50,362 nt of DNA, taken from IMG/VR virus record IMGVR_UViG_3300042731_005849, positions 1-50,362 of that record. One strand, given 5' to 3'. Positions 17,310 through 50,362 of this stretch are shown piece after piece. Origin of the DNA: a virus. The translations under genes were made by a program, and so were the position numbers. Under the pieces are notes generated by a model. That model was not told where the DNA came from, did not search any database, and was given only the letters and a program-made list of their open reading frames with translations. Numbering within the stretch: the stretch's first letter is position 1; the number at the start of each line of letters is the position of its first letter.

Positions 17310-18248
17310 ATGCCCACCACAGAGGAAATTCTGAACAAGGCTGACCTCGCGGTATCGGATCTCGTATCCAACGGTGGATACCTGAACCCGATGCAGGCCA
17401 ACACCTTCATCAGAATGCTCATCGAACAGCCCACCTTGCTGAACGAGATCAGAGTCGTCCCGATGTCGGCGCCGACGATGGAGATCAACAAGATCGGGTT
17501 CACGAGTCGCATTCTGAAGGTCGCGCCTGCCAGCGGCACAGCACTGGCTGCGGCCGACAGGTCGAAACCCGTGACCGACAAGGTCACGCTAACCACCAAG
17601 GAGATCATCGCCGAGGTTCACATCCCGTACGACGTGCTCGAGGACAACATCGAGCGCGGTCGTCTCGAGGACACGATCATGGCGCTGATCGCGGAGAGGG
17701 CATCCCTGGATCTGGAGGAGCTGATCATCAAGGGCGACACCGGATCGGGAGACGCTTATCTCGCCTTGGCAGACGGCTGTCTCGCGCAGACGACCAGCCA
17801 CGTTGTCGACTACGGTGCAACGGCGCCGTCAGTCACGAAGGCCGTGTTCAAAGCGGGCATAAAAGCCATGCCTAACAAATACTTGAGGAATCGAGCAGCG
17901 ATGAGGTTCTACACATCGCCGCACGCTGAGATCGAGTATGCCGACAGCCTGGCGAACAGGGAGACCCCTCTCGGTGACGCGAAGGTGACCGGGTGGATGC
18001 CGAACTATGCCTATGGCGTGCCGGTGAAGGCAGCAGCTCTGATGCCTGACAGCAAGTACATCTTTACGTGGCCCAAGAATTTCATCCTGGGAGTCCAGCG
18101 ACGGATCATGGTTGAGACGGACCGGGACATCAGGGCTCGCGTACTGATCGTCGTGCTGACCATGCGGATCGACATTAAATGGGAAGAAGAGGATGCAGTA
18201 GTCAAGTGCCTCGGCCTGGATGTTGGCGGAGAGTCAACCACCACGTAG
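17310..18248 (+). CDS. Major capsid protein, HK97 fold (312 aa)
   Basis: AAGGAGGAAAGTCC precedes the ATG. The order is typical of HK97-fold capsids: a short N-terminal helix (TTEEILNKADLAVSDL), an E-loop-like region (NKIGFTSRILKVAPASGTAL), a spine helix region (DTIMALIAERASLDLEELII), and P-domain/A-domain strands near YTSPHAEIEYADSLANRETP with IRARVLIVVLTMRIDIKWEEE at the end. Length 312 is usual. There is no long N-terminal delta domain, in line with a separate scaffold. The C-terminus is GGESTTT, the shortest form of the Thr tail found in other virion proteins here. Confidence 0.85.
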   Translation: MPTTEEILNKADLAVSDLVSNGGYLNPMQANTFIRMLIEQPTLLNEIRVVPMSAPTMEINKIGFTSRILKVAPASGTALAAADRSKPVTDKVTLTTKEIIAEVHIPYDVLEDNIERGRLEDTIMALIAERASLDLEELIIKGDTGSGDAYLALADGCLAQTTSHVVDYGATAPSVTKAVFKAGIKAMPNKYLRNRAAMRFYTSPHAEIEYADSLANRETPLGDAKVTGWMPNYAYGVPVKAAALMPDSKYIFTWPKNFILGVQRRIMVETDRDIRARVLIVVLTMRIDIKWEEEDAVVKCLGLDVGGESTTT

Positions 18249-18273
18249 TTGAGCTGATTGGTAGGAGGTAAGC

Positions 18274-18558
18274 ATGTCTAAAGTGTCGAAAGTGACACTG
18301 CTCGGAACCCCTGGCAGTACATATACGATCGCTTATGGAGCGCGAGAGTACCTGTTCGCTGCTGGCCGTGCCAGGAAGGTTCCTGTCGTGATCGCCCTGG
18401 AGGCACAGAAGAAACGAGACCGGAGAGGGGCCCCGCTTTTTTCCGTGGAGGACCTTCCCGAGATCGTGACCTCGGCGCCTCCCGAGCCGGCCGATCCCGT
18501 CGAGGAGCCAGAGCAGAATGCACCGGCAGAGGCTCAGCAACCAACATTTGGAATATAG
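18274..18558 (+). CDS. Small head-module protein (94 aa)
   Basis: GTAGGAGGTAAGC precedes the ATG. The first ~55 residues are a beta-rich domain (SKVTLLGTPGSTYTIAYGAR, then ARKVPVVIALEAQKKRD); the rest is a Pro/Glu/Ala linker (EPADPVEEPEQNAPAEAQQ). It lies directly after the capsid gene, where decoration or head-completion proteins are usual. No specific family can be named. Confidence 0.55.
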   Translation: MSKVSKVTLLGTPGSTYTIAYGAREYLFAAGRARKVPVVIALEAQKKRDRRGAPLFSVEDLPEIVTSAPPEPADPVEEPEQNAPAEAQQPTFGI

Positions 18559-18561
18559 GCT

Positions 18562-19158
18562 ATGGCACTAAAACTTCACGTCGGAGGCGCGGAGTCCGAT
18601 AGCTTCGTCACCGTCCTCGAGGCGGACGATTATCTGGAGAACCTGCCCGACGATACGACAGAATGGGAAGAGCTTTCCACGGAGGCCAAGGAGCTTCGGC
18701 TCCAGCTGGCGGCCCAGCTGATGGGTCACCTGCCCTTCCGTGGGTACACCGTGTATAGGTATCAGAGGCTCTGCTTCCCCAGGACCAGCCAGCCCTACGG
18801 TCGAAGGTTTCAAATCCCCAATGACATCAAACGGGCTCAGGCGTTCGTCGCCTACTCGATCGTTCATCGATCGCTCGCGGCTCGGGCTGCCATGGGGGAG
18901 GACGGGGCCGACGCCTCGTGGGGCACGCCAAGATCCATCTCACTGGCCGGCCTGGTTTCTGTTTCGTTCTCTGGGGAATCCACAGCGACGAACATGCTGG
19001 AGAACCTGACCCGCTCGATGCCGTATCCCGTCTATACCTTGCTCAAACCCTATCTGTCGCAAATTCGAGGGAGGTCCGTCCCAGACTCGGACGAGCTGAG
19101 GACGTTGTCTACCACAACCACGACAGAACCGCCCGTCGTGACAACGACGACCACGTAG
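18562..19158 (+). CDS. Head-tail connector protein with Thr tail (198 aa)
   Basis: Matches the DnaT-like/connector type of head-completion protein: EADDYLENLPDDTTEWEELS, then AAQLMGHLPFRG, the RLCFPRTSQPYG segment, and NDIKRAQAFVAYSIVHRSL. Such proteins attach below the portal. The last ~17 residues are a Thr-rich tail with an EPPVV insert, ending in TTTTT. The DNA of the tail is an ACN repeat that stops at TAG. The next gene is in the same frame after two codons, so rare read-through would fuse both. Confidence 0.75.
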   Translation: MALKLHVGGAESDSFVTVLEADDYLENLPDDTTEWEELSTEAKELRLQLAAQLMGHLPFRGYTVYRYQRLCFPRTSQPYGRRFQIPNDIKRAQAFVAYSIVHRSLAARAAMGEDGADASWGTPRSISLAGLVSVSFSGESTATNMLENLTRSMPYPVYTLLKPYLSQIRGRSVPDSDELRTLSTTTTTEPPVVTTTTT

Positions 19159-19164
19159 GAGGAA

Positions 19165-19353
19165 ATGATGGCGATCGGAAGACAAGGCTCAGTGGGGAAG
19201 GCCACTTCCAGATCGGGGCCCGTGATCGGACGACAGGGGAAGAAAGCAGGACCGATCGGGAAAACCAAATCGATGCACGCATCTGCTCTGACCTTGGATC
19301 AGGACAGAACGAAGGTCGCGTACCCGACGACGTCGACAACGGCCGCCCCGTAA
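19165..19353 (+). CDS. Small basic protein with Thr/Pro end (62 aa)
   Basis: GTAGGAGGAA precedes two ATGs (19165 and 19168). It contains repeated basic/glycine segments (AIGRQGSVGKATSRSGPVIG, then RQGKKAGPIGKTKS) with two RQG copies, and ends in YPTTSTTAAP. The short, low-complexity nature suggests a peptide that binds the virion or DNA. In frame with the gene before and the gene after. Function unknown. Confidence 0.5.
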   Translation: MMAIGRQGSVGKATSRSGPVIGRQGKKAGPIGKTKSMHASALTLDQDRTKVAYPTTSTTAAP

Positions 19354-19365
19354 ACGGAAAGTGAG

Positions 19366-20601: not shown

Positions 20602-20629
20602 CGTCAGAGCAAACAAGGAGGAATAAACC

Positions 20630-21175
20630 ATGGCAGGACCAGCAAGCCCATCGACGACCCTATACCAGCTTGGGAGGGGCGTGATGTCGATCGCAGAGTG
20701 GACTGGATCGACACCCCCATCCGCTGGGGATTACGAGGATGTGGGGAACAGCCCTCGCTTCGAGTGTGAGGTGAGCGAGGAAAAGCTGGACCACTACAGC
20801 TCTCGGTCTGGTATTCGGGTCAAGGACAAATCCGTCACATTGGAAATCGGGTACACGCTCAACTTTGATCTGGACGAGGTGAGCCAGGCAAACCTGGCCA
20901 GGTTCGTCCGGGGGACCGTCTCGGGCGACGAGATCCGGGCCGCCACAGCACTCGACCAGGAGTTCGCGGTCAAGTTCGTCTCCGACAACCCTGTCGGCGA
21001 GAACGAGAAGTGGGAGTTCTGGCGAGTCACGTTGTCCCCAGGTGGAGCGTTCAACCTGATCTCAGATGAGTGGAACCTGATCACGTTCACGGGTGAGGGA
21101 CTGGCTGATACGGCGAACCATCCGTCCAGCCCGTACTTCACGGTGACCTGGGTAACCACGACAACCACAGCCTAA
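20630..21175 (+). CDS. Major tail tube protein (181 aa)
   Basis: AAGGAGGAATAAACC precedes the ATG. The protein is beta-rich with an N-terminal loop (LYQLGRGVMSIAEWTGSTPP), PRFECEVSEEKLDHYSSRSG as the characteristic loop, KSVTLEIGYTLNFDLDEVSQ, and a final domain strand (WNLITFTGEGLAD). The order between terminator and chaperone genes supports the tail tube. The C-terminal residues VTTTTTA are a short Thr tail, unusual for a tube protein. Confidence 0.75.
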   Translation: MAGPASPSTTLYQLGRGVMSIAEWTGSTPPSAGDYEDVGNSPRFECEVSEEKLDHYSSRSGIRVKDKSVTLEIGYTLNFDLDEVSQANLARFVRGTVSGDEIRAATALDQEFAVKFVSDNPVGENEKWEFWRVTLSPGGAFNLISDEWNLITFTGEGLADTANHPSSPYFTVTWVTTTTTA

Positions 21176-30700: not shown

Positions 30701-31498
30701 CAGGAGGAGCCCGTCGTGGAGTCCCACGGGACCTTCGGATGGTGGGGATTCAAGAAGACGTTCACGCATTACTACAGCCCGGACAAGCGGAAGAGGTGCG
30801 TGGAGCCGCGTCTGGAAAAGATCGAGGATGCGGCGAACAGCTTCATCTTTGATATGCTAGGCAACGTCTACATGAAGATCGTCTCGTCGACTGACACGTA
30901 CGTGGTGGTCAAAGTGGAGGCCACGGATCTGACCGGCGCCCTGATCACGGCGATCGCGGCTGCCTTGGGTTCGCTCCTCATTCCGGACCTGGTGATCACG
31001 TTTGGGGTTTATGCGACGACCGGGACGACACTGCCGTTTCCCGGGTCGGCGGCTCGAGCCCTGGCTTTTGCCGTGGTCTTCGAGATCCTCTCCTCGATCG
31101 GGAACTACCAGTACCGGGTCCATGCGAGGCCGGTGACGGAGATCCGGAGAGAGTTCTCGGTGATCGTGGACGATCTCGACCTGCAATATGAGATCGGTCG
31201 GATCATCGCCAAGTCATGGGATGACCCTCTCTGCTACACGATCTCCCAGGCCCAGTGGCGGGCGGAGCGAGAGATGAAGATGCTCCAGTGGCAGAGGAAG
31301 CGGGTCAACTTCTCCAAGATCACCCACCTCCAGGACGAGGAAGGGGACATGATCACGGTCCCCCACCCGTACACCGGGGAGACGATGCGGATCTTCGTGA
31401 CGAAGCTGACGAGGAAATTCAGGTATTCGGCCAAGGGAGGACGAGCTGGCGGCGGGGGCTACTTCATCGATGACATGGAAGGGTGGATCGTAGGATGA
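27725..31498 (+). CDS. Tail hub protein with sialidase-like propeller (1257 aa)
   Basis: Residues 1-250 and up to ~750 form a beta-propeller-like region: an Asp-box SISTDDGSTWG (~236-247) and many WxxxD and YDxxT blades (DRMKMWIWTSGYLSAADRIG). From ~760, GEVKKTQSIEGEPSELSFSL, LRFGESVYEDPD, GTFYIDNVKLKHERG, LQDVLETHGN and WTEEDLMDIIEDICDRFGYY follow the order of Tal/gp27-like hub proteins. A hydrophobic stretch lies at ~1070-1125. A large propeller inside a hub protein suggests glycan recognition or cleavage during adsorption; catalytic residues were not identified. The stop overlaps the next ATG. Confidence 0.65.
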   Translation: MALTLDAALAAAQGLQNRRPLVDIEAAGAEMEVLPMPAFELQSSAEYDQHPNALMLSNGRIVVVYAVDASAIRFGLSDAERLELSFQTILTGSEVDSPAIVERPDGKIGMLYLERGANNLVKWAVLAASGGVEDSGTVANYGSSDWMSEPFVILLSSGTYLAVWTVRRGLDYDFQTSTSTDFETWTTVATPSVSGLLVTRHLDHPSLVQLDTDDVFMWFDYVNEIDENAHEISNIFYSISTDDGSTWGGAVQATFYDTAIITAEHPIAFQDDTASQFVAFTEKTTALHKSSAGEQYEDVEWCGAGGATTSSVRSIGWDWVNRKVYCINGETRTWQQFRSVIKMDLDTWEIDDCWSYTSDGYDPGYHGYFGKNPCDPPGPYGNFCSTNVGLWNTRQGRNIIAVASDSSYYGDFEIGIAVLDGENDWIRHYWNWQRTDWGVEPNLAVIGEGTKFIDIDQDRMKMWIWTSGYLSAADRIGYIDLTQTVPDPFYDFNQFTTRENSSATDFRIYEDLDMMIIGGNSYVIVYSISEGGTTHSFGAGSPGGEDWPAQGIRKLCYMDNAIWGTIDYLGETDDYKHGLIRCDLDTGEVSMHNPFAEWGYRVQPWRVEPTQDHELVMTGGQYGFYLYDTQADEWLHHDNSSVAGLLPGNPVARVYALAYDEATGTMIGGANFGQTRPWQGVIAVNRYGLLRSNQYFNITYDGGWTVGATSQLTDGIADFHASPVQDPDEDFLYAFWTRQVKLDYDLYWGREGTELITPFLIGEVKKTQSIEGEPSELSFSLGRGHLFDPYHTTSLLSPYMQRGAKLYLRFGESVYEDPDWVEYWQDMGTFYIDNVKLKHERGTYPTMQVVAKDLIMFMEEDQDIFTQEYVDTYPQYVLQDVLETHGNLDPNTEILLPELMENQAYLSMQWTEEDLMDIIEDICDRFGYYWRVNVDGKFTIRYINDDIVTNPVDHVYSDSTRLLHFTPDYQMSDWTNRVIIKGESLEWEDVIHQEEPVVESHGTFGWWGFKKTFTHYYSPDKRKRCVEPRLEKIEDAANSFIFDMLGNVYMKIVSSTDTYVVVKVEATDLTGALITAIAAALGSLLIPDLVITFGVYATTGTTLPFPGSAARALAFAVVFEILSSIGNYQYRVHARPVTEIRREFSVIVDDLDLQYEIGRIIAKSWDDPLCYTISQAQWRAEREMKMLQWQRKRVNFSKITHLQDEEGDMITVPHPYTGETMRIFVTKLTRKFRYSAKGGRAGGGGYFIDDMEGWIVG

Positions 31499-33252
31499 AA
31501 TATGCCGGCAAAAAAATGCTGCGTCGTGCGATGCGTCGTGAGGCAAACCGCCGGACCGAGACGCGGGACGCCGTGATTGCAAGCATAGACACCGAGAATC
31601 GGGTCCTGACCGTGCTGGTTCATGGGTCTCCGTATCCGATCAAGGCCCGATTTGCCAACGACTGGGACGATCCACAGAGCAGGCCCCACTGGGTTCAGAG
31701 GGGAATGTCCGTTCAGATCCGGCACCGTGGAGGGATCCGAAAAAGGGTGGACGTAGTTGGTCCCGGACTCCTGGTTCCAGGGACGACCGTCGTCACCGAT
31801 CCGCCGACCGGAGCGGATGCGGTCATCGAGGGATGCTCGATCCGGCAGGTGGCCGGCGTTGAGGTTATGGCTGTTTGGGTAACGACAGGGTATTACCGAA
31901 TCGACAACGTGGTCTACGAGCTGGAGGCTGTTCCGGTGGGATACGAGATTCCGTCTGGATGGGAGATCCCGATCGCCCTTTGTGCCGGCATCGTGTATCT
32001 GGCCGCGCCGCCGGTGGGGAACGAGTACCGGTTCGATATTATCGTGGTTGGGGCGGATGGAGTGCTCGACCTGGTGCAGGGAGTCCCGGACTCAACAAGC
32101 CCGGAGATCCCGGACACGCCGGCGGACCACGTCCTGCTCGGATCCATCCTGATGTACCCGGGAATGGTCTGGGCGAGGGCACAGGACATCACGCCCGACT
32201 GGGAGGAGCCGCACCCAGCGATCATCAAGGTAACACCCGAGACGGTGGAGATGCCCTACGAGATGTCCTCGCAGGACATCACGGTGCAGATATGTGATCA
32301 GCGCGGCGTTCCGATGGGCGGGCCGGCTCCAACGGGGTGGTACATCACGCTGGAGTTCGCGGGGACAGGGTCCGGGTATCTGTACTCGCCTGATGAGGGG
32401 ATCTCGTACGAGAGCATTGGGTGCTCGACCGGTGCGGCGGCCTCGTCCTGCACGTTCACATATTACCGGGAGAAGGACGCCCCGGCCAGTACACTGCCCG
32501 AGATGGACCATTACACGTATTTCTCAGAGTATTCGGAGGGGACCCAGCCCGATGATTGGTCCCTGCGTTACCAGGGGACAACCTACGGGACCTTCCACGC
32601 CGTATCGCCTGGTCAGGGGTATGGGTCGAAGGTGCTGTTCCACGACTCCAAGGGGAACACGGGGAGGCAGATGTTGTCCTGGGACCCGCTGGATAACACG
32701 AAGGACCTGTCGATTCTGACAAAAGTTCGTGTCACGGAAACAGCCGGCCACAAGTGCTACATCTTCGCCCGAGCACACGGCACGTATCCCGTGACGAATG
32801 CCTACTATGTCAGGTTTTCGGATACGGACTTTATCCTGGGCGGGTGGAGGGAAGTCTCCTTTCTTGATCCGTCGGGTGGGTGGTGGATTGCCTCTACTCC
32901 ATTCGTGCCGACAGTCGGAACGGATTACTGGATTCGGTTTCGGGTGATTGCGACGGAACTCAAGGTGAAGCTCTGGGAGGACGGGACCGCAGAGCCGGAA
33001 ACCTGGACGTTGGAAGGGACAGATGATGCCTATCAGCACGCGGGATGGACCGGGGTCGGAGGATATGACAGTGATTGGTACTGTGACGCCTTCGGGGTAA
33101 ACACAGCACTGGCAAAGATTTACGGGTCTGAAGAGTCCCCCGTTCTCCTGGCGACGCTGAGGTACGAATACGAGATTCGGACCCAGCTATACATAACGCT
33201 GATCGGAGCCGACGGGGAGGTTGTCCACCCATACGAGGTGTTTGAATCATGA
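31495..33252 (+). CDS. Tail protein with ConA-like sandwich domain (585 aa)
   Basis: Start at 31495 (ATGA), with a basic N-terminus (MKYAGKKMLRRAMRREANRR), then a Gly/Val-rich beta region. Residues ~340-540 carry a ConA/LamG-like domain beginning YFSEYSEGTQPDDWSLRY and with WIRFRVIATELKVKLWEDGT, nearly the same signature as in the large fibre at 35457 (YWIRFRL...IRVWEWGTTEP). The end is a beta strand pair. It continues the baseplate/fibre series. The following gene is coupled (ATGA). Confidence 0.6.
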   Translation: MKYAGKKMLRRAMRREANRRTETRDAVIASIDTENRVLTVLVHGSPYPIKARFANDWDDPQSRPHWVQRGMSVQIRHRGGIRKRVDVVGPGLLVPGTTVVTDPPTGADAVIEGCSIRQVAGVEVMAVWVTTGYYRIDNVVYELEAVPVGYEIPSGWEIPIALCAGIVYLAAPPVGNEYRFDIIVVGADGVLDLVQGVPDSTSPEIPDTPADHVLLGSILMYPGMVWARAQDITPDWEEPHPAIIKVTPETVEMPYEMSSQDITVQICDQRGVPMGGPAPTGWYITLEFAGTGSGYLYSPDEGISYESIGCSTGAAASSCTFTYYREKDAPASTLPEMDHYTYFSEYSEGTQPDDWSLRYQGTTYGTFHAVSPGQGYGSKVLFHDSKGNTGRQMLSWDPLDNTKDLSILTKVRVTETAGHKCYIFARAHGTYPVTNAYYVRFSDTDFILGGWREVSFLDPSGGWWIASTPFVPTVGTDYWIRFRVIATELKVKLWEDGTAEPETWTLEGTDDAYQHAGWTGVGGYDSDWYCDAFGVNTALAKIYGSEESPVLLATLRYEYEIRTQLYITLIGADGEVVHPYEVFES

Positions 33253-34343: not shown

Positions 34344-35447
34344 ATGGCACTGGTCTTTTTCGATAACTGTGATTATTACGGCACCAACGAAATCATGGAT
34401 GTATATGATCACTGTGGGAATACGAGCGAACTCAGCATCGTTTCTGGATCGGGAAGGAATGGGACCAACTGCATCCAGATTGACGCTGCGTTTGGCGCTT
34501 CACGATGGCTTGATAAATGTTTTCCAGCGACGGGTACCGTGATCATAGGCCATGCACTGTACCATCTGACTGATGTTGGAAGCCCGTTCGGTATGCGTTT
34601 GTATAACTATCAGGGGGTCCAGGTTACGCTACGAGTGGAGAGCGACGGGTCCCTCGCTTTAAGAAGAGGAGACCATACCGGGACAATCGTTGGGCAATCG
34701 GATGCCGGAGTGATTGCGGTAAATACGTGGTACTTCATCGAAATGAAAGTTGAGATCGGAAATTCGGCGGATTTTTCTGTGAGGGTAGGCGGTCAAGAGG
34801 TGATCAACGAGACCGGAAAGGACACGCAGAACCAGTCAGTGGCAACGGTGAGTCGGTACATATTTTACAACTCGAACAACGAACACGTCCGGTATGATGA
34901 TATGTATATCATCGTTCCGGGCGGGGCGTATAACAACGACTTCTTGGGGGACGTTCGCATCGATACGCTCTACCCGACGGGGGCAGGCTTTCACTCAGAT
35001 TTTGTGCCATCGACCGGATCGACGAACTGGAACCTGGTGGACGATCCCTCGACGAGTACCAGCGACTTTGTAACGGCGAATGAGATTGACGACATCGACA
35101 CGTATGAGGTCGGGTCCCTCGACCCGCTGGTCACGGATCAGATCAAGGCGGTTGCTGCGGTAACGTATGCAAGGAAACCAAGTGGTGGGACGGCTGTCTA
35201 TAAAGGGGCTGTTCGGTATGGGGGTCAGGATTATACCAAAAGATGCGCCGATCCGACCCGAGGATTTCTGGGAGCTTCATGGAGAAGGAGCCATACGATC
35301 TGGGAACGGCGACCGTGGGACGGCGATCCTTGGACCCAGGACAACATCGCCGCCTGTGAGTTTGGACAGTCGATGGGAGATCCGCTGGATGTGGTATCGA
35401 CCACGACTACGGCGGCCCCGGTGACGACAACGACAACGACAGCGTAG
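34344..35447 (+). CDS. Fibre-type protein, paralogue of the next gene's N-terminus (367 aa)
   Basis: Start at 34344 after GGAGGAGGGTC; longer upstream frames read through the preceding Thr tail. Residues 1-230 form a sandwich domain (MALVFFDNCDYYGTN, LRRGDHTGTIVGQSDAG, YFIEMKVEIGNSADFSVRVG) with a NNDFLGDVRIDTLYPTG boundary shared with the next protein's N-terminal domain (NNDFLGECYVTMRPT). The C-terminus ends STTTTAAPVTTTTTTA. The TAG stop is followed in the same frame by three codons and the ATG of the next gene, so both could once have been one protein. Confidence 0.6.
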   Translation: MALVFFDNCDYYGTNEIMDVYDHCGNTSELSIVSGSGRNGTNCIQIDAAFGASRWLDKCFPATGTVIIGHALYHLTDVGSPFGMRLYNYQGVQVTLRVESDGSLALRRGDHTGTIVGQSDAGVIAVNTWYFIEMKVEIGNSADFSVRVGGQEVINETGKDTQNQSVATVSRYIFYNSNNEHVRYDDMYIIVPGGAYNNDFLGDVRIDTLYPTGAGFHSDFVPSTGSTNWNLVDDPSTSTSDFVTANEIDDIDTYEVGSLDPLVTDQIKAVAAVTYARKPSGGTAVYKGAVRYGGQDYTKRCADPTRGFLGASWRRSHTIWERRPWDGDPWTQDNIAACEFGQSMGDPLDVVSTTTTAAPVTTTTTTA

Positions 35448-35456: not shown

Positions 35457-38400
35457 ATGGCGCTGCTATTTTTCGATGGCTTTGGACATTATGCCACGGC
35501 AGACTTCGGTCAGAAGTATGACGGGACGACTGCGAACAGGATCATCCTCACGGGCGGGACGACGGTCGGAGACGAAGGGGAAGGATACACAGCACAGTAT
35601 TTGCACGTTGAATATGGCGGGTCGACAACGTCGTGGGTAGATTTTTCCCCGTATGCCGGAGGAGCTGTCGATACGGTGATCGTCGGTATTAGACTCTACA
35701 ACACGGTCTACCTTGCCGGTACGTTTTACGGGCTCCAGATAAAGAACGCCGATGGCAATCAGGTTACACTTCAGAAAGGGGTGAACGACTTCTCTCTCAT
35801 ATTGAGAAGGGGTGACTACAACGGGACGGAACTCGGCAGGACAGATCCGGTCCTGCTGGGGACCCATTGGCAGTATCTTGAGTGGAAGACCTACATCCAC
35901 GACACGAATGGGTATTCGGAAGTCAGGGTGAATGGTCAGACTCTTCTTAGGGTCGACGACGTCGATACAAAGTTCCAGTCGAGCAGCGGCGCGACACGAT
36001 TTGCTCTCCGACGGTCGAGCGGTACAAACCAATATTACAATTCGATGTATATCTGTGATGATTCTGGAACGATGAACAACGACTTTCTGGGCGAGTGTTA
36101 TGTAACGATGCGCCCGACGATCTCGGACGGGGACACGCAACACTGGGTTCCGAATACGGGCGAGAGCTGGGATGCCGTAAACGACGAGCAGGCAATCGAC
36201 GAGGATACCAGCTACATCGAAGCATACACGAAGGGCGACAAGACGCTCCACACGTATGCGAACGTGTACGAAGAACATGCCTATGGACACTGTCGAAATT
36301 ATGGCGACATTAAGGGGGTGGCGGTCAACCTGTCGACGAAGCTGGACAAGACCGGAACGGGTATGGGCGTTACGGGCGTTGTAACCATCGACGGGGAAGA
36401 TTATCTGGCAGACCTGGAAAAAGAGCCTGGGACAAGCTACGAGATTTATCAAGGACTGTGGGAGAGGAATCCAGCGACTGGGTCGGCGTGGACTCCGTCG
36501 AGCCTCGGGACGTCCCAGATCGGGGCGGTTGTCACGTCGTCGCCCTCGAGCACAACGACCACAGACACGCCCCCGCCAGCGACGACGAGCACGACTTCAA
36601 CCACGACGACAGCCCCGCCTGATTACTGGTGGACAGACTTCTCGGAGTACACCTCGGATACGGCTCCAGGCGACTGGACAGAAAGATACAACACCGGGAG
36701 TGGATCGATCACTGTTCGGGACTGGGGGGCGTATGGTGGGAAATGCTTGCAAGTAGATAATAGTGCAAGTGCCCAATACGCCGCCTCGTGGGACGACGTT
36801 GGGAGTGTGAGGGACCTTGAGATCCTGGCCCGCCTGCGGGTGGTAGCAGACACGAACAGCGCGGGTCGGGTTATCTGGAGGGGATCTGGAGGGGCCGGGA
36901 CTGAGAACTGTTATCTTGCCCAACTAAGAAGGACAGACGGTCACTTTGGGGCGGCAAGGTATATCAGCGGAACCTATACAGCCCTGAACAGAAAGAACTC
37001 GACTCTTGCCGAAGATACGAGATGGAACTGGATCCGGGCCAGGATGATCGGGAACAGGCTCCGAGCAAAGATATGGGACGGTTCGATTTCCGCAGAACCG
37101 TCTACGTGGGTACACGATTTTCTCGATACCAAAATCAGCGATGCGGGCTGGGCAGGCGTGATGCAGTATGTGGACGCCACGCACGTCGACTTTTTCAGCG
37201 TGGCGACGAACGGTGGGACGGCGATCGGGCCCTCGACCACAACGACCGGGCCTCCCGAATATTGGGAGACAGATTTTTCGGAGTATGCCCGAGACGCGAA
37301 CGCCTCGGACTGGACCAGGCAGTGGCGTACGACGCAGGACATCAAGATCAAGAAGATCCTGAACTCTGTAGTTGGTGGGAATCAGCTCTTGGTTGACGCC
37401 TCGGGTTCGGGGTATCTCGCCCATACATGGGATGACATCGGCGATGTAGAAAATGCAGAGGCCCTGGTGCTGTTCATGAAGGGGACGGCCTCTTCGGGAG
37501 AGGACTGGGGAGGCGCCTGCCTGCGGGTTTCTGGATCGAGTGGATCAGAGAATGCCTATTATCTCGCATGGGACCCAGGCGACAATACGATCAAGCTGAG
37601 GACGATCAAGAGCGGGGCGACAGTTCTGGTTGATACGGCGTCGAAGACGATCGGATACAATACATGGTATTGGCTCCGGCTCAAGGTCAATGGGCATCTC
37701 TTGTACGGGAAGGCGTGGGAGTACGGGACGACAGAACCATCTGCTTGGGATGTGGAATATGCGGATACGACACGTATTCCGGCAGGAAAGGCAGGGACCT
37801 TCTGGTATGATTCAGATACGTACCTTGACCGGATCGATTACTTTGCGGTTGCGACCAATGGAGGAACTCCTGAATGGCCGACGGTTGTAACGACCACGAC
37901 AGCGCCTCCGGAGTATTGGGAGACAGCATTCGATGAATATACACAGGGCGTTCAGCCGTCAGACTGGACGAATCACTGGGATACGAGCGGGATCACTTGG
38001 ACAAAAGAGTTTGGAGGAAAGACAGGCGGAGGGTCGAGGCTGTTTGGGGATCGAACAGCAGACAACGCTTATGGGCTTGGGTGGAATGATACAAATGGAA
38101 CAGATGGGTCGGTTGAAGTTCTGGCTTGTGCCAAGCAACATCATTCAAGTGCAGGAACAGACGCCGGAGGCGGGATCGTAATTCGCGGAGCTGGCGACGG
38201 GGCAAGCGAACGGGGTTACGTATTCAATCTCGATGAAGCCAGCCAAAAGATCCTGCTCAGGCGGTTCGACGCAGCAGGGTATGGGACAACTACCCTCTCG
38301 AATCCCGCCTTCACGATGAGCTTGAATACTTGGTACTGGATTCGATTCCGACTTACAGATGCACAGACCGGAGTAAGGAAGCAGATTCGTGTCTGGGAAT

Positions 38401-39371
38401 GGGGGACTACCGAGCCCGGCACATGGAATATCGACTATACGTCTTCAGGAGTAGGGCATATTTCAACGCCTGGGTGGGTCGGGGTCTACGAGCGAGACGT
38501 AGATTCAAGCTGGGATTGCGTTTCGATTGCGACGGGTGGAGGGACACCGTACCAGTGGGCACAGACGACCACCTCGACCACCTCGACAACGACCACCACA
38601 ACGGCTCCGCCTCCACCCCCGACGACCACGACGATTCCGCCCCCGACCACCACGACTCTGCCGCCGGCTACGACAACGACGACCACGGCGCCTCCGCCGC
38701 CGACGACGACGACTTCGCGGCCGCCGGACTGCTGGTATGACGACCCCTTCAACGGAAGCAACGGGTCCCCCGCCGACGCCGAGAAGTGGGAGTACGTCTC
38801 GCCGGCCACGACCACGGACTTCCAGATCCAGAGCAACCAGCTCCGGGCGTACATCGATTTTGACGACACGACCCGCGAGATCCAGAGCCTCTGGGAGCTG
38901 ACCGGGGACTTCGACATCCGGGTCGACCTGGACGCCTCTGGGAATCCGACGACGAACAGCTGGTGGATCGGGTTCGGGATCCGGAGGGGCGCCTACAAGG
39001 TCAAGGTTTTCAGAAAGTATTACGGCCAGCACGGGTACCGGACGGATTTCGACGGGTCGACCGAGGATCACCACCCGTACGCAGAGACGGACTGCAAGTT
39101 CCGGATTGCCCGGGCCGGCTCCACGGTCACGGTCTACCGATGGACCGGGTCCGACTGGTCCCAGCTCCGGAGCGAGACCTGGGGCGCCTACGATTGCGAG
39201 GTCTTCTTCGAGACCCAGAGCTGGTCCGGGAATCCGACGGCGACCGGGTACTTCAATAATTTCGATGTGTTCGAGGGATGCGAAAATATTGATCTGATTA
39301 CAACCACGACGGAACCGCCAGTCGTGACCACGACCACGGCGCCGCCGGCCACCACAACCACGACGGTATAG
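35457..39371 (+). CDS. Giant multi-domain tail fibre (1304 aa)
   Basis: Beads-on-a-string architecture. Residues 1-375: N-terminal sandwich domain paralogous to the previous protein, then Thr linker (SSTTTTDTPPPATTST). Residues ~392-595, ~603-810 and ~821-1030: three ConA/LamG-like domains starting WWTDFSEY, WETDFSEY and WETAFDEY, each with WYW(I/L)R-type strands (e.g. WIRARMIGNRLRAKIWDGS). Thr/Pro linkers (TTTTGPPEY; TTTTAPPEY) join them. Residues ~1035-1090: a 55-residue Thr/Pro linker. Residues ~1092-1285: a fourth, different sandwich domain. The C-terminus is TTTTEPPVVTTTTAPPATTT followed by TTV. Likely receptor binding. Codons in domains vary in GC, in line with piecemeal acquisition. 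Confidence 0.7.
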   Translation: MALLFFDGFGHYATADFGQKYDGTTANRIILTGGTTVGDEGEGYTAQYLHVEYGGSTTSWVDFSPYAGGAVDTVIVGIRLYNTVYLAGTFYGLQIKNADGNQVTLQKGVNDFSLILRRGDYNGTELGRTDPVLLGTHWQYLEWKTYIHDTNGYSEVRVNGQTLLRVDDVDTKFQSSSGATRFALRRSSGTNQYYNSMYICDDSGTMNNDFLGECYVTMRPTISDGDTQHWVPNTGESWDAVNDEQAIDEDTSYIEAYTKGDKTLHTYANVYEEHAYGHCRNYGDIKGVAVNLSTKLDKTGTGMGVTGVVTIDGEDYLADLEKEPGTSYEIYQGLWERNPATGSAWTPSSLGTSQIGAVVTSSPSSTTTTDTPPPATTSTTSTTTTAPPDYWWTDFSEYTSDTAPGDWTERYNTGSGSITVRDWGAYGGKCLQVDNSASAQYAASWDDVGSVRDLEILARLRVVADTNSAGRVIWRGSGGAGTENCYLAQLRRTDGHFGAARYISGTYTALNRKNSTLAEDTRWNWIRARMIGNRLRAKIWDGSISAEPSTWVHDFLDTKISDAGWAGVMQYVDATHVDFFSVATNGGTAIGPSTTTTGPPEYWETDFSEYARDANASDWTRQWRTTQDIKIKKILNSVVGGNQLLVDASGSGYLAHTWDDIGDVENAEALVLFMKGTASSGEDWGGACLRVSGSSGSENAYYLAWDPGDNTIKLRTIKSGATVLVDTASKTIGYNTWYWLRLKVNGHLLYGKAWEYGTTEPSAWDVEYADTTRIPAGKAGTFWYDSDTYLDRIDYFAVATNGGTPEWPTVVTTTTAPPEYWETAFDEYTQGVQPSDWTNHWDTSGITWTKEFGGKTGGGSRLFGDRTADNAYGLGWNDTNGTDGSVEVLACAKQHHSSAGTDAGGGIVIRGAGDGASERGYVFNLDEASQKILLRRFDAAGYGTTTLSNPAFTMSLNTWYWIRFRLTDAQTGVRKQIRVWEWGTTEPGTWNIDYTSSGVGHISTPGWVGVYERDVDSSWDCVSIATGGGTPYQWAQTTTSTTSTTTTTTAPPPPPTTTTIPPPTTTTLPPATTTTTTAPPPPTTTTSRPPDCWYDDPFNGSNGSPADAEKWEYVSPATTTDFQIQSNQLRAYIDFDDTTREIQSLWELTGDFDIRVDLDASGNPTTNSWWIGFGIRRGAYKVKVFRKYYGQHGYRTDFDGSTEDHHPYAETDCKFRIARAGSTVTVYRWTGSDWSQLRSETWGAYDCEVFFETQSWSGNPTATGYFNNFDVFEGCENIDLITTTTEPPVVTTTTAPPATTTTTV
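38558..38727 (+). repeat. ACN/CCN codon repeat, Thr/Pro linker
   Basis: The longest of the linker repeats: about 55 codons of mainly ACN (Thr) and CCN (Pro), with blocks of TTTT followed by APPPPP, IPPP, LPPA and APPPP. At DNA level it is built from ACGACC, ACCACG and CCGCCG steps and could recombine with other linker-coding tracts at 36540-36620, 37230-37260, 39298-39370, 34270-34330 and 50200-50362. Confidence 0.75.
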
Positions 39372-39712: not shown

Positions 39713-41581
39713 ATGGGAAAGAAGGTCGCGTGGGACACGTATGGAGACCACCCGACGGGGAGCCCGCCGCCGGGATGGACGAAGCAGGTCGAGGAGGAGA
39801 CCCTCGTCTCCGATGAGGTCGTGACGGACGCCGGCCAGCCTGGGGGGAAGGCTCACGAGATCCAGACGGACGCGGCCACGGACGGGGAGATCGTCTACAC
39901 GATGGACGTCTTTGGTGACGGGTCCACAATCGAGATGCTGGGCCTGCTCAAGACGAACAACACGACCGGGGAGCAGTTCAAGCTCGTCGGGCGCCTCGAG
40001 GAGGTCGGCGGGGTCAAGGCGTATTACAAGGTCTCGGTCCAGAATGGGGACATGCTGGTGATCTCCTCGGTCAAGGGGGCGAACTACATCGTCATCGACG
40101 AGACCGCGTTCGCGTGGTCCGCGAACACCTACTACTGGGTTCGGGTACAGATGGCCACGCAGACGATCCGAGCGAAAATCTGGCAGGATGGGACCTCGGA
40201 GCCGGGGGACTGGACCCTGGTCGGGCAGATGGTTTCCGGAGAGGAGCCATCCTGGGAGGCAGAGCTGTTCTCTCCCTCTGGTCCGACAAGTGGTGCTATT
40301 GGGCTCCGGGTCACGCCGTCGAACGGGTACATCGTGGCCATCTATTCGACCGGATCCTACTGCTGGGACACGGCGGAGCTTTCCCTGGAGGGGTCGACCA
40401 CGGCAGCGGACCGGCCAGCGGCGGGTGACTCGAATAACTGCGGCATCGATGATGATGCCCTCTATTATCGGGCGGCCAACGGTGGGATAACTGAGCTGGT
40501 GAAGTACGACCTGCCTGATTTCGGGACGACGAAGGCGACCGATGGGGATTACGACACGCCGCTCGTCAGCGTCTCTGCGGGAAATTATGTGCTACACAGT
40601 CCGTGGGAATATGGGCTGATCGGAACGAACAAGAGCGACATGACCCGAGCCTGGACGAACCTGTGGTATGGGCCCTACAACTGCTGCACGGTCGGGCCAA
40701 ACTCGGAGGATTGGACAGATCCGTGCAACCCGGAATCCGGGACCACCTACGACGGATCGTACGTCTGGGCGATCAGCTGGGGGCGCCACTGTACCCCGTC
40801 GCCTTGCGCGACAGCGATCGACTACGGCTGGTACCTGCTGGGGGTGGATCCGTCGGACGGGTCGATCGACTACTTTTACGATGTCTCCTCGTCGTTCAAG
40901 CACATGGACGATAACTGGTCCGTGGCGTCGGTCGTGGCCTACGACGAGACGAACAACTGCCTGATCATCACGGGGACGGCCTACAACTCTGGGACCTACT
41001 ATCGGCAGCACATCGGGAAGTTCGACCTAACGACGAAGACCATGACCGGCGTCCTGGAGGATACCTACTGGACGACGAACTACCATGACCAGCATCAGGT
41101 ATCGCCGAACGGGAAGTTCTGGTATCGGTACAACTCCGAGGAGGACGGCACGGGGGATGACTACCTGAACTGCCTGGATATTGCGACGATGACGGTCGAG
41201 CATAGCAAGAAGCTCGCGGACCTGGACGTGGGATCCGGAAAGCAGGTGACGAAGATTTCGTACTGGACAGAGGTGGATTCGGAGTCCGGCGCCTTTTTTG
41301 CCAGGCCGACGGCCGGGACCGGACTGAACTCCCAGGACCTGCTCAAGATCAGCGTATCTGGGATCTCGAGCGAGTTCCTGCGGAGCAACGGGAAGCCTGG
41401 ATGGGGAGGCAAGGGGAAGGGCTCGACCGTGACGATCACGTACTTCTCGGTGGCCGAGAAGACGGAGCCGCCGCCGCCAAATGGGAACAGCGGGTTCGAG
41501 GAATGGGGGAACCCGTTCGCGTGGGTCGGCCCGGGGCGGATCGGCCGGATGCCCCACAGGCTGGGTAAGGGGATCAAGTAA
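39713..41581 (+). CDS. Tail fibre with sandwich and propeller domains (622 aa)
   Basis: Residues 1-235 resemble the ConA/LamG-like repeats of the giant fibre (opening KKVAWDTYGDHPTGSPPPGW; strand YYWVRVQMATQTIRAKIWQD). Residues ~245-560 read as a propeller-like region with YDxxT and GKFDLTTKTMTGVL blades, close in style to the hub propeller (e.g. LGVDPSDGSIDYFYD). The last ~40 residues are Gly/Pro/Trp-rich (GFEEWGNPFAWVGPGRIG). Its TAA overlaps the next ATG. Confidence 0.6.
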   Translation: MGKKVAWDTYGDHPTGSPPPGWTKQVEEETLVSDEVVTDAGQPGGKAHEIQTDAATDGEIVYTMDVFGDGSTIEMLGLLKTNNTTGEQFKLVGRLEEVGGVKAYYKVSVQNGDMLVISSVKGANYIVIDETAFAWSANTYYWVRVQMATQTIRAKIWQDGTSEPGDWTLVGQMVSGEEPSWEAELFSPSGPTSGAIGLRVTPSNGYIVAIYSTGSYCWDTAELSLEGSTTAADRPAAGDSNNCGIDDDALYYRAANGGITELVKYDLPDFGTTKATDGDYDTPLVSVSAGNYVLHSPWEYGLIGTNKSDMTRAWTNLWYGPYNCCTVGPNSEDWTDPCNPESGTTYDGSYVWAISWGRHCTPSPCATAIDYGWYLLGVDPSDGSIDYFYDVSSSFKHMDDNWSVASVVAYDETNNCLIITGTAYNSGTYYRQHIGKFDLTTKTMTGVLEDTYWTTNYHDQHQVSPNGKFWYRYNSEEDGTGDDYLNCLDIATMTVEHSKKLADLDVGSGKQVTKISYWTEVDSESGAFFARPTAGTGLNSQDLLKISVSGISSEFLRSNGKPGWGGKGKGSTVTITYFSVAEKTEPPPPNGNSGFEEWGNPFAWVGPGRIGRMPHRLGKGIK

Positions 41582-41797: not shown

Positions 41798-41841
41798 ATT
41801 CCAGAGGGCGACCGCTCAGCGGAATCGCCATGGAGGAGACA

Positions 41842-43098
41842 ATGGAAAAGGTAGCAATTTTAACCACTTTCAGGGAGTTCGTGTCAGGCTACAGTTTGAC
41901 CGGGATCGTGCTGGACCAGATGAAGATCCTGGAGCGAGGAGGCCATGAGGTGGCCGTGTACGTGACCGAGGACTACCACGGAAAGAAGAACCCCCCGGGG
42001 GTCGATGTGGCCCGGATCCACAAGAAGATCCCGAAGGCCAAGCTCATCGACTACAAGACTCGGAACGAGATTACGGATGAGCACAAGGCCGTGGCCGGCC
42101 AGATGGCGGCCCTCTGCCTGGGGGAGCTGACCCAGTACGACATCGTCCTCACGCACGACCTGATTTTCACCGGCTGGAATCTCCCGTACGGGCAGGGGAT
42201 CCGGCAGGCCGGCCAGGATTGCAAGAACCGGTGGCTCCACTGGATCCATTCGATCCCGAGCGGTTCGAGGGATTTCTGGAACATGCGCGAATACGGGACC
42301 CGGCACAAGATCGCCTACCCGAACAAGACGGACGCCCGCCGTGTGGCCGACCAGTTCCGGACCGAGGTCGAGGCCATTCGGGTGATCCCCCACCCGAAGG
42401 ACCTGAGGAGCTGGTTCGACTTCGACCCGGTGACGTGTGCCTTCATCGACGACTACCCGGGGGTGATGCAGGCGGACATCGTCCAGATTTATCCGGCCTC
42501 GACGGACCGGCTCTCAGCCAAGAGGACCCGCGAGGTGATCATGGTCTTCGCGGCCCTGAAGCGGATGGGGTTCAAGGTCCAGCTCGTGATCGCCAATCAG
42601 TGGGCCACGGGCCGGCAGAGGAAGGAGGACGTGACCAAGTACACGCAGATTTATAAAAGGAACGGATTGACGAGCGAGGAGGTCTGTTTCACCTCGAACT
42701 GGAAGAAGGAGTTCGAGCTGGGGCTGCCAAAGCGGGTCATCCGGGAGCTGTTCCAGTGCTCGAACCTATTCCTGTTCCCGACCCGCGAGGAGACCTTTGG
42801 CCTGGTGCTCCCCGAGGCGGTCCTGGCCGGCGGGGTGCTGCCGGTGCTCAACAAGAGCCTCCAGATGATGATGGAGGTCACCGGGATGCACGCGGACTAC
42901 ATCGACTTCGGGAGCTACAACCAGACGATTCCGGACCCGGCGCCCGGGTGGATCGAGGCGGTTGCCCAGGCGATCGTGGGCCGGATGAGGCGGGACGAGT
43001 CGATCATGACGAAGACTTACATCCGGCAGAGGTATAACTGGGACAACCTGTACCAGAAATTTTACGGGCCGATTTTTGCCGAATCGAAGGATTGGTAG
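41842..43098 (+). CDS. GT4-type glycosyltransferase (418 aa)
   Basis: The start at 41842 follows GGAGGAGACA; a start at 41830 overlaps that site. Two-domain GT-B enzyme: N-terminal Rossmann-like half with SGYSLTGIVLDQMKILERGG, and a C-terminal half ending in the donor-binding segment FLFPTREETFGLVLPEAVLA, which contains the E-x7-E motif of GT4 (retaining). HSIPSGSRDFW lies between. It probably transfers a sugar from a nucleotide donor in the cytoplasm. The setting, in the midst of fibre genes whose proteins have Thr/Pro-rich linkers, suggests virion proteins as acceptors, but DNA or host surface glycans remain possible. Confidence 0.75.
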   Translation: MEKVAILTTFREFVSGYSLTGIVLDQMKILERGGHEVAVYVTEDYHGKKNPPGVDVARIHKKIPKAKLIDYKTRNEITDEHKAVAGQMAALCLGELTQYDIVLTHDLIFTGWNLPYGQGIRQAGQDCKNRWLHWIHSIPSGSRDFWNMREYGTRHKIAYPNKTDARRVADQFRTEVEAIRVIPHPKDLRSWFDFDPVTCAFIDDYPGVMQADIVQIYPASTDRLSAKRTREVIMVFAALKRMGFKVQLVIANQWATGRQRKEDVTKYTQIYKRNGLTSEEVCFTSNWKKEFELGLPKRVIRELFQCSNLFLFPTREETFGLVLPEAVLAGGVLPVLNKSLQMMMEVTGMHADYIDFGSYNQTIPDPAPGWIEAVAQAIVGRMRRDESIMTKTYIRQRYNWDNLYQKFYGPIFAESKDW

Positions 43099-43109: not shown

Positions 43110-43535
43110 ATGGTCAAGGTATGTGCCCATTGGGACTGTAAGATGAAAGAAAGCCTCGATGTCAAGCGCCAGATTTATCAGTGCTACGATTTCACGGCCA
43201 AGGCGTTTGGGATCGACGACATCCACACGGTCGATCTGGACGGGACCTGTACGGTCGACCCGCCGAACCTGTTCGGGTCCCTCGAGGAGATCCTGAAAAA
43301 GTTTTCGGACCTCGAGCCGGTCTACATCTCGGAGAGGGGAGGGACGGATCTGAAGGAGTTTGTTCATCCAGAGAAGGCGCTCTACATCACCGGGCCGAAT
43401 TATACGGGGATGAGGATTCCTGACGGGGCCAAGGTTGTGAGCATCAAGGCAAGCAGCCTTTATCCTTCATCTCCGCTCTGGGCCCACGTTGCCCTTGGCA
43501 TCGTTCTGTCCGACCGCATTTACAAGGAGGGCTGA
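43110..43535 (+). CDS. SPOUT/TrmH-like protein, tentative (141 aa)
   Basis: Start at 43110 after GGAGGGAGGGCC. The C-terminal half resembles the cofactor-binding knot of SPOUT methyltransferases: EKALYITGPNYTGMRIP as the motif-2-like turn, VVSIKASSLYPSSPLWAHVA and GIVLSDR as the motif-3-like helix. The N-terminal half has IHTVDLDGTC and EEILKKFSDLEPVYIS, alternating strands and helices. Known members modify RNA 2'-OH; the substrate here is unknown and residue-level proof is lacking. It might also be a Rossmann-like protein working with the neighbouring glycosyltransferase. Confidence 0.4.
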   Translation: MVKVCAHWDCKMKESLDVKRQIYQCYDFTAKAFGIDDIHTVDLDGTCTVDPPNLFGSLEEILKKFSDLEPVYISERGGTDLKEFVHPEKALYITGPNYTGMRIPDGAKVVSIKASSLYPSSPLWAHVALGIVLSDRIYKEG

Positions 43536-43537
43536 GT

Positions 43538-48186: not shown

Positions 48187-48194
48187 GGGGACCC

Positions 48195-48416: not shown

Positions 48417-48597
48417 GCAGGACTATCTGCGGGCCCATGGGGACCAGATGTTCCGACGTGGCCGGGGGGCCCACTGGGGCTTCCCTGGCGCCGGCGTCCT
48501 GGGGACCTCGAAGTTCGTCTTCGGGGCCCGCGCCTGGAAAATGCCGAACCTGAAGAAGAAGGCCAAAAAATGGAAAGATAAGAAAGAGAAGCCATGA
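48355..48597 (+). CDS. Small basic protein (80 aa), GTG start
   Basis: GTG at 48355 lies inside the preceding gene. Pro/Thr-rich start (PKTPAGEARTPPPTTPEQDY), a Trp/Gly middle (RGRGAHWGFPGAGVLGTSKF) and a Lys-rich end (NLKKKAKKWKDKKEKP). Its TGA overlaps the next ATG. The start is uncertain. Confidence 0.4.
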   Translation: MPKKPKTPAGEARTPPPTTPEQDYLRAHGDQMFRRGRGAHWGFPGAGVLGTSKFVFGARAWKMPNLKKKAKKWKDKKEKP

Positions 48598-49298
48598 CGA
48601 CAACCACTACGAGCGCACCTCCTGGTGGGGGTCTGTATTTTGACTTTTTGAACCAGCTGATCTGGGTCCTCGAGCCCCAGGCCGAGGTCCTCTGCCAGGA
48701 CCTGATTAACGAGATCCGGGCAGCCGAGGACTCGTTCGAGGGGATTGCCCACGGGAAGATCGCCGACGCCTCCGGGAAGGAGCAGCTGGCCGAGGGGATC
48801 CTGGTCGGCATCACCATCGAGCTGCTCGAGAACTGGCAGCTCAAGTTCTGGGCCGGCGACTACATCGCCAAGATCCACGGCGGGAACCTCGTGGGCGGGC
48901 CGGCGAACGACCCGGTCGCCTACACCCCCGGGGTGCAGGCGCTATTGATCCTGTCGGCCTCTGCCACGCTGGTGACAATGGAGGGAGGCGGCGGAGACGG
49001 GGGTCTAACGCAGGAGGAGCACGACTGGCTGATGAGCCTGCCGACCCTTGCCCAGATCGAAGCCTCGAGCACTCTGAACATGCAGGACGAGATCCTCCGG
49101 ATCCTGGGGCTCGTCCAGGAGAACTACTACCTGGACCAGACCTCGTACGACGCGAACGGACAGCTCCTGGCCGGCAGAATCCGGATCTATTCGGTGGCCG
49201 GCTCGGTGGGGACCGCGAACGACGTGATCGCCACGTACACGATCACACCGGTCTGGGTCGGCACGGAGCTGCAAACGTACAAGGTGGAAAAGGTATGA
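48594..49298 (+). CDS. Structural protein with Thr N-terminus (234 aa)
   Basis: Begins MTTTTTSAPPGGG, the same tract seen at the C-termini of other virion genes, then FDFLNQLIWVLEPQAEVLCQ and amphipathic helices (DLINEIRAAEDSFEGIAHGK) with a hydrophobic NWQLKFWAGDYI segment. Residues 140-190 hold an acidic coil (QEEHDWLMSLPTLAQIEASS), and the end is beta-type. ATGA overlaps at both ends. A tail accessory protein, not recognised. Confidence 0.5.
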   Translation: MTTTTTSAPPGGGLYFDFLNQLIWVLEPQAEVLCQDLINEIRAAEDSFEGIAHGKIADASGKEQLAEGILVGITIELLENWQLKFWAGDYIAKIHGGNLVGGPANDPVAYTPGVQALLILSASATLVTMEGGGGDGGLTQEEHDWLMSLPTLAQIEASSTLNMQDEILRILGLVQENYYLDQTSYDANGQLLAGRIRIYSVAGSVGTANDVIATYTITPVWVGTELQTYKVEKV

Positions 49299-49495
49299 GC
49301 CTTGCGCTCGCCACGAAAGGGGTCATCTGCCGGGGGACCGGGATCTCGGTGACGGTCACCGGGCCTCCGGGGACGGAGACCGTGTACCTGATCGAGATGG
49401 GGATTGACGTCGAGCTGGAGACGCTCGACGTGGCCATCAAGCTCGATGATTTCGATGTTGCGATCGACATCGAAGAAGACGGGTGGGTTGCATGA
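49295..49495 (+). CDS. Small beta protein (66 aa)
   Basis: ATGA overlaps on both sides. The first half is a beta segment (ATKGVICRGTGISVTVTGPP); the second is a run of acidic strands with a repeat: VELETLDVAIKLDDFDVAID. Likely a small partner of the neighbouring fibre proteins. Not recognised. Confidence 0.45.
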   Translation: MSLALATKGVICRGTGISVTVTGPPGTETVYLIEMGIDVELETLDVAIKLDDFDVAIDIEEDGWVA

Positions 49496-50362
49496 CCACA
49501 ACTACAACCACAGCGCCGCCGCCTGATGTGCCTTTGGACGAGGCATGGCATTTTGTCCATACCGATTCCGATTATATCACGGTCGGCGACGATGCTGCCT
49601 TGACCCTGCCTGACAGTGATTGGACGGTAGCCGGTTGGGTTCGCTTCTCTGATATGAACGCGAGCCCCAATTATCAGTACCTTATCTCTTGGGGTACATA
49701 CGATACTGCTAACTCGTTCATGCTCTTTTTGGCAAGTAATGACGACTACCTGTACTGGAGGATACAGGACGGAAGCTCTAATGAGCTTTACGATGGCACT
49801 GGACCAAACATATTTAGAAGTGATAGTGATGTGTGGTATCACGTTGCCTTGGTATATAGCGGCACCACGCTCACGGTGTATCGGAACAACGTCTCGGTTG
49901 GCTCCGAAACCCAGGCGATGGGTGCGATCAACTCGTCGACCGATTGGAACTTCGGTAGAAGACAGGACACTCCGACCAATAGATATTTCCGAGGGGATTT
50001 AGCTGGGTGGGCCAAGTGGGACAGAGCGCTCGATGCGACGGATCGTGCCTATCTGGTAAACTGCGGTGCTCCTTCGGACGAAGCAGTAAATGAGGATTTG
50101 GCCTGGTTCTGCCCCGGCGATGATTACACAGAGATCGTCGAGGATCTCACGGTAACAAATTACGGCACGACGATCGTCGATACAGGGCCTTGCCAGCCAG
50201 CGACAACCACGACCGAGCCTCCCGCCGAAACGACCACGACCGTCCCGGCCCCGACGACAACGACGAGCCCGCCTGTTACGACCACGACGGAACCGCCGCC
50301 GGCGGAGACGACCACGACCACAGAGCCTCCAGAAGTCACGACGACTACGGCGCCGCCGGTCC
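49492..50362 (+). CDS. LamG-domain fibre protein, cut by window end
   Basis: The frame stays open to the last base, so the gene continues beyond the window. It starts MTTTTTTAPPPDVPLDEAW, then a LamG/ConA-like domain: AALTLPDSDWTVAGWVRFSD, WYHVALVYSGTTLTVYRNN, and RYFRGDLAGWAKWDRALDAT, a standard Laminin_G_3 order. After residue ~225 comes a long Thr/Pro linker (TTTTEPPAETTTTVPAPTTT and more), as in the giant fibre, so a further domain probably follows. Confidence 0.75.
   Translation, partial: MTTTTTTAPPPDVPLDEAWHFVHTDSDYITVGDDAALTLPDSDWTVAGWVRFSDMNASPNYQYLISWGTYDTANSFMLFLASNDDYLYWRIQDGSSNELYDGTGPNIFRSDSDVWYHVALVYSGTTLTVYRNNVSVGSETQAMGAINSSTDWNFGRRQDTPTNRYFRGDLAGWAKWDRALDATDRAYLVNCGAPSDEAVNEDLAWFCPGDDYTEIVEDLTVTNYGTTIVDTGPCQPATTTTEPPAETTTTVPAPTTTTSPPVTTTTEPPPAETTTTTEPPEVTTTTAPPV

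Follow-up and report, generated by a model that had tools for sequence, protein, structure and literature searches.

Why would proteins as different as a capsid subunit, a tail-tube subunit and a fibre of the same phage end in the same kind of threonine-rich sequence? This question is raised by IMG/VR record IMGVR_UViG_3300042731_005849, a linear virus sequence of 50,362 bases from an uncultured tailed (siphovirus-like) phage, which is called the window here. Nine of its structural proteins have a Thr or Thr/Pro tract at one end. These tails are genuine features of particular virion proteins, and they co-occur with one family of phage-encoded glycosyltransferase (GT). We consider it probable that phage enzymes add O-glycans to the Thr(/Ser/Pro) tails and linkers, which would serve as disordered acceptor sites.

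Threonine Tracts in the Virion Proteins of the Window

From 15.5 kb onward, the window is a siphovirus-type late operon, in which a protease gene is followed by the genes for the major capsid protein (phrog_1623), the adaptor Ad1, the head closure protein, the neck protein, the tail terminator and the tail tube (phrog_807), and then by a weak match to a chaperone, a 1763-residue open reading frame (ORF), tail proteins and fibres. The tracts are located as follows.

18234-18245, plus strand: STTT at the C-terminal end of the capsid protein, the shortest tail (ORF 17310-18248, phrog_1623)
19108-19155, plus strand: C-terminal tail STTTTTEPPVVTTTTT of the neck adaptor Ad1 (ORF 18562-19158, phrog_477)
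19168-19353, plus strand: gene of a small basic protein (61-62 residues), with the tail TTSTTAAP at 19327-19350
21152-21172, plus strand: VTTTTTA at the C-terminal end of the tail-tube protein (ORF 20630-21175, phrog_807)
34283-34330, plus strand: C-terminal Thr/Pro tail TTTTQPPSATTTTTTA of a fibre-type protein (ORF 33467-34333, phrog_7049)
35397-35444, plus strand: C-terminal tail STTTTAAPVTTTTTTA of a fibre-type protein (ORF 34344-35447, phrog_2448)
36543-36620, plus strand: Thr/Pro linker 1 inside the giant fibre (ORF 35457-39371)
37236-37250, plus strand: short internal linker PSTTTTGPP of the giant fibre, joining two homologous domains
37875-37907, plus strand: internal linker of the giant fibre, joining homologous domains
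38556-38717, plus strand: long Thr/Pro linker inside the giant fibre
39300-39368, plus strand: C-terminal tail TTTTEPPVVTTTTAPPATTTTTV of the giant fibre
48594-48623, plus strand: N-terminal tail MTTTTTSAPP (ORF 48594-49298)
49492-49524, plus strand: MTTTTTTAPPP at the N-terminal end of a Laminin_G_3 protein, whose ORF starts at 49492 and is still open where the contig ends
50206-50361, plus strand: long Thr/Pro/Glu linker that follows the Laminin_G_3 domain and runs off the contig

An earlier note on this DNA had listed such tracts in head, tail and fibre proteins, and all of them were found at the genes it named, abutting a stop codon or a start codon. In 2,000 within-protein shuffles of the 30 gene calls, C-terminal tracts numbered 0.02 on average with a maximum of 2 (5 observed), N-terminal tracts 0.02 with a maximum of 1 (2 observed), and internal tracts 3.2 (7 observed), which rules out chance or composition as their origin. 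The thresholds for calling a tract were set during the analysis and differed slightly between analyses. The STTT of the capsid protein is marginal by itself and falls below the tract threshold; relatives have TTTTT to TTTTTTTTTT (5–10 Thr) at this position.

The threonine codons in these tracts are mixed ACN triplets, and two identical Thr codons stand side by side less often than expected (93 vs. 115 ± 7.5 in 18 related loci). The tracts are therefore not a nucleotide repeat artefact, and repeat slippage can be ruled out. Within one genome, the tails resemble each other: the last residue is the same in 63% of pairs, as against 31% after shuffling, and the composition agrees too. The corresponding DNA identity is barely above that of synonymous shuffles (10.7 vs. 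9.9 bases, with 6 of 87 pairs standing out), which leaves little room for recent copying of one tail across a genome. Tails that are alike in amino acids and hardly in DNA would result from selection on the amino acids rather than from DNA copying, and resemblance of this kind is what would be expected from a single modifying enzyme. In each of 20 records, matches to a poly-ACN pattern were confined to a single strand, and the reversed pattern used as a control gave almost none.

The model of the tail-tube protein has a tail-tube fold, with the tail tube of YSD1 as the best match, and residues 174–181 have a predicted local distance difference test (pLDDT) value below 50 and no fold, so the tail is predicted to be disordered. 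In composition, the tracts are Thr/Ser/Pro-rich low-complexity sequence, like mucin-like PTS domains. Inside the giant fibre, four linkers are clear and a fifth is weak. A sandwich domain of ~210 residues occurs three times in this protein, once each in the proteins encoded at 31483-33252 and 39713-41581, and also in locus L222; its copies in the fibre module of the window are about 22–35% identical, and in the tracted proteins that have it only a few residues separate the tract from the edge of the domain. These repeats point to domain shuffling inside one fibre module.

Tails in Relatives of the Phage

For comparison, 80 capsid relatives were taken from IMG/VR. In the group nearest the window, Thr tails are found at the ends of the capsid protein, Ad1, the small basic protein and the tail tube, and the fibres are a further tailed slot. 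The tails never occur on five neighbours (p94, the head closure protein Hc1, the neck protein Ne1, the terminator and the chaperone) in the relatives compared. In a second group (L025-L029, L036 and L037), they are limited to the capsid protein and the tube. The capsid relatives from GTDB, L083-L090, are remote and untailed. The composition of the tails goes by genome, being pure Thr in L005 and L009, Thr/Ser in L006 and L013, Thr/Val/Ala/Pro in L016 and Thr/Pro/Glu in the window; several relatives have pure Thr tails without Pro. Sequence and length vary freely, from 3 to over 30 residues.

The small basic protein of the window (19168-19353) has a gene that was detected only in tailed relatives. 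Its core is MAIGxxGxVGK...GPIGK...ALTLDQDKTKVxYP, and in some relatives the tail equals the body in length; it is possibly a dedicated tail carrier or a decoration protein. No match to this protein was found in 50,697 phage records, and a search with the Thr-tailed fibre encoded at 34344 returned matches from the same species only. A strict pattern of tail, stop codon and ribosome-binding site matched eight contigs. With a looser tail pattern, about half of the matches listed had no tract in the called genes, and these matches were filtered by gene. Thr tracts were also seen in L232, L250, L266, L270, L277 and L279, often as TTTTTTTAAP-like repeats in small and fibre proteins, and these phages may be a separate class.

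One untailed sister (L008/G020) represents a natural loss or gain. Its capsid protein is 76% identical to that of the window, and it retains the flanking genes, with the conserved genes cl7, cl9, cl10, cl11 and cl13 in the same order. Among the genes compared, L008/G020 lacks the GT, GT2 and other glycan genes, all of the tails and the small tailed gene, at the place of which Ad1 and head closure abut. Its tail-tube protein (L008:13082-14056) stops exactly where the Thr tail of the relatives starts and has an internal insert of ~140 residues that is absent from the tailed homologues; this insert may substitute for the tail. According to the earlier note, relatives whose homologous proteins end before the tract, with no selection on it, would count against its reading. 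Some relatives do end there, but L008/G020, the best covered of them, is also devoid of the GT genes and of the small tailed gene, and this joint absence favours a function for the tails.

A Glycosyltransferase Family That Accompanies the Tails

The candidate modifier is encoded on the 3′ side of the fibre genes, which it adjoins.

41830-43098, plus strand: glycosyltransferase with a predicted GT-B fold, the proposed tail modifier, with invariant E321 and E329 (EX7E)

Its sequence has only weak matches, to phrog_2170 and to GT-group-1, and no match by sequence in the PDB. The AlphaFold model has MshA as its best Foldseek match (E = 6.4e-12, probability 1.00), placing the protein near the GT-B retaining enzymes, and the two glutamates of the EX7E motif are invariant across seven homologues. 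The predicted fold and this motif are shared with GT4-like retaining GT-B enzymes (MshA, PimA and WaaG), from which the window GT differs in being only about 14% identical to them and in forming a family of its own. Using tblastn, no match at 1e-5 was found in the 50,697 phage records, a collection that includes Che8. All long members of the capsid family that have tails carry homologues with 46–64% identity.

This family was present in 7 of the 7 tailed and in 0 of the 15 untailed long records of the capsid family (22 including the window; Fisher about 6e-6, ancestry ignored). The tailed records G005 (55 kb, of which about 21 kb follows the capsid gene) and G007 (37 kb) were left out of this comparison, as their GT region is incompletely covered, and neither matched. 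On the capsid tree, tails change five times and the GT five times, with identical labels in all rows; the best tree contains five independent tail/GT pairs, of which the two on well supported branches are both concordant. PF00534, PF00535 and phrog_2170 were also tried as tail markers and discriminated poorly, because several untailed relatives carry GTs as well; only the family of the window GT tracks the tails.

A reverse search that started from the GT alone yielded 63 viral loci, which formed 55 clusters at 90% identity. Thr tracts were found in 35 of the 39 GT clusters with at least 9.5 kb of upstream sequence, as compared with 2 of 50 control loci, the controls being untailed capsid-family loci, i.e., capsid relatives rather than a random sample of phages. 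Tract density was 22.8 per 100 kb in the GT loci and 0.3 per 100 kb in the controls, and tract-bearing genes lay mostly upstream of the GT gene (78 upstream, 4 downstream). At L149:4500-8171, an extreme case, a protein of 1223 residues encoded beside the GT gene has some 25 low-complexity tracts of Thr, Ser, Val, Gln and Glu.

In tailed relatives, the region 3′ of the GT gene encodes Glyco_trans_1_2, GT2, GT9 and GT-group-1 enzymes and hexapeptide-repeat transferases, and in single tailed genomes it also encodes LpxC, a sulfotransferase or a GDP-mannose dehydratase/epimerase. In G015, an LpxC-like deacetylase (5.5e-63) is encoded at L110:18569-19390, and the same run of genes, which follows the fibre genes, includes three hexapeptide-type genes, a sulfotransferase gene and several glycosyltransferase genes; this run is a glycan pathway, unusual for a phage. 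In G012, a gene of the GDP-mannose 4,6-dehydratase/epimerase type (L106:17027-18085) adjoins GT2 and GT9 genes. The window stops 7.3 kb past its GT gene, so its own set of glycan genes may be incomplete.

Weighing the Explanations

We infer the rest of the proposed route, namely the action of the GT on the tails, the sugar, the surface exposure of the tails, the later extension of the glycan and its benefit. GT-B enzymes act in the cytoplasm, and the enzyme encoded after the fibres would add the first or an early sugar at Thr there, ahead of assembly or while it proceeds. Other transferases and modifying enzymes encoded by the phage could then extend or decorate the glycan. The outer face of the tube proteins of tailed phages is often decorated, and tails that stick out from the capsid, the neck, the tail tube and the fibres would give the virion a coat of glycans, which might serve shielding or protection, solubility or adsorption.

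Several observations weigh against glycosylated tails. The tails of the window are short, with 5–6 Thr in the blocks of the tube and Ad1 and 3 in the capsid protein, and the global template-modelling (TM) score of the GT model is low (0.38–0.40). The records are fragments and related, and the tree provides just two independent contrasts on well supported branches. Four GT clusters (L161, L164, L168 and L178) contain no Thr tract despite sufficient upstream DNA. Conversely, the phages with TTTTTTTAAP tails lack the window GT family in the records searched, which means that tails can exist without this GT; several phages of this type show no GT by PF00534 or PF00535, and L266 has other GTs.

An alternative that we regard as unlikely is that the tails are unmodified flexible spacers or hydrophilic brushes, serving solubility or the separation of domains, and that the GT works elsewhere, with DNA, a small molecule or the surface of the host as its target. 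The Thr/Pro linkers do part homologous domains of the giant fibre, the predicted disorder of the tube tail would suit a spacer, and some tailed phages show no GT by the two Pfam models just named. However, spacers predict neither the joint presence and absence of tails and one GT family nor the preference for Thr over Gly, Ser, Ala or Glu, and they leave open why tails should be on capsid, neck and tube yet not on the neighbours of these proteins. We give very little credence to the idea that the GT and the cluster downstream glycosylate phage DNA and that the tails of these phages have nothing to do with it. Phage GT-B enzymes are able to glucosylate DNA, and T4 alpha-glucosyltransferase is among the fold matches of the window GT. 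Thymidylate-synthase-type enzymes are a common route to modifiable bases, but a PF00303 match over the cut-off was found in only 1 of 11 GT-positive genomes (G004; G019 was below it), a test that covers this single base-modification route. Moreover, LpxC, a sulfotransferase and hexapeptide transferases better suit a surface glycan, and the tight link to Thr tracts would be a coincidence.

The other two readings came from the earlier note, which had put mucin-like O-glycosylated tails beside recombination seams and docking tags. Seams that allow domains to be exchanged between virion proteins fit the inside of the fibres, where the ~210-residue domain recurs and is bounded by tracts, but they leave the C-terminal tails of the capsid protein, Ad1 and the tube unexplained. 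Homology at the tracts is also poor, because the codons are scrambled and the DNA is little more similar than after synonymous shuffling; as a general account, seams are most improbable. Docking tags for one shared virion partner would explain why many structural proteins of one genome have the same kind of end. We see scant likelihood in this, as no candidate partner emerged and the tails of different relatives have lengths of 3 to more than 30 residues and compositions that include pure Thr, Thr/Ser and Thr/Val/Ala/Pro, with no positive evidence in favour of docking. Glycosylated tails are favoured among the suggestions of the note since the tails track a GT-B family and, in several relatives, a glycan cluster.

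Other Genes of the Window

The protein encoded directly after the GT gene had no Pfam match.

43110-43535, plus strand: protein of 142 residues, directly 3′ of the GT gene

On the 5′ side of the late genes, a HATPase_c_3 protein of 509 residues is encoded at 11516-13045, and the short product of 14326-14916 contains a DNA polymerase beta thumb domain (5.9e-18). The minus strand of the left part of the contig has two plausible protein genes (5874-7259 and 4736-5428), for which no convincing family match was found.

Comparison With Known Systems and Significance

To our knowledge, virion glycosylation of phages has been demonstrated chiefly in mycobacteriophages. There, capsid and tail-tube subunits are reported to bear glycans at their C-termini (Freeman et al. 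2023, cited in PMC12619734), and phage-encoded transferases are described as modifying the capsid and the tail tube (PMC11600133). The principle of virion glycosylation thus has a precedent, and the window, like the phages of this system (Che8, Corndog), encodes a glycosyltransferase; it has acceptor-like C-terminal ends, as judged by sequence alone, on the same two proteins. In contrast, the capsid and tube ends of Che8, the sole mycobacteriophage compared, have no Thr tract, and tblastn (1e-5) against the phage collection that includes Che8 gave no sign of homology between the window GT and a mycobacteriophage GT, although a remote GT-B kinship is possible. Tails on the neck adaptor, on a small dedicated protein and on fibres go beyond the capsid and tube glycans of mycobacteriophages. 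What appears to be new, if the glycans are real, is the use of poly-Thr as an acceptor, its extension to neck and fibres, and the GT family itself.

Promiscuous Ig-like domains likewise place one interchangeable surface module on head, tail and fibre proteins, as in the window, and the annotation of cultured relatives of the tube protein includes an Ig-like domain. Ig-like add-ons are folded beta sandwiches, whereas the tail here is a putatively disordered Thr tract, in frame and with no frameshift seen. O-glycosylated PTS domains of the mucin or linker type have Thr/Ser/Pro-rich stretches at ends and between folded domains, as the window does; mucins are modified in secretory pathways, whereas the modifier here would be a cytoplasmic GT-B protein of the phage.

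On balance, we lean towards the view that a large set of uncultured tailed phages has a virion-glycosylation system of its own, in which poly-Thr tags added in parallel to capsid, neck, a dedicated carrier protein, tube and fibres are served by a phage-specific GT-B family, joined in several members by a glycan pathway encoded by the phage, and which is gained or lost as a unit and sometimes swapped for a tube insert. If this is true, the GT family as a one-gene marker and the Thr tails as a visible acceptor would make virion glycosylation predictable in environmental phages. It would also give a function to glycosyltransferases that are now filed as auxiliary metabolic genes, and explain low-complexity protein ends that annotation pipelines ignore. 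The natural pairs in which the system is present or absent could be used to study what a phage gains from a coat of glycans.

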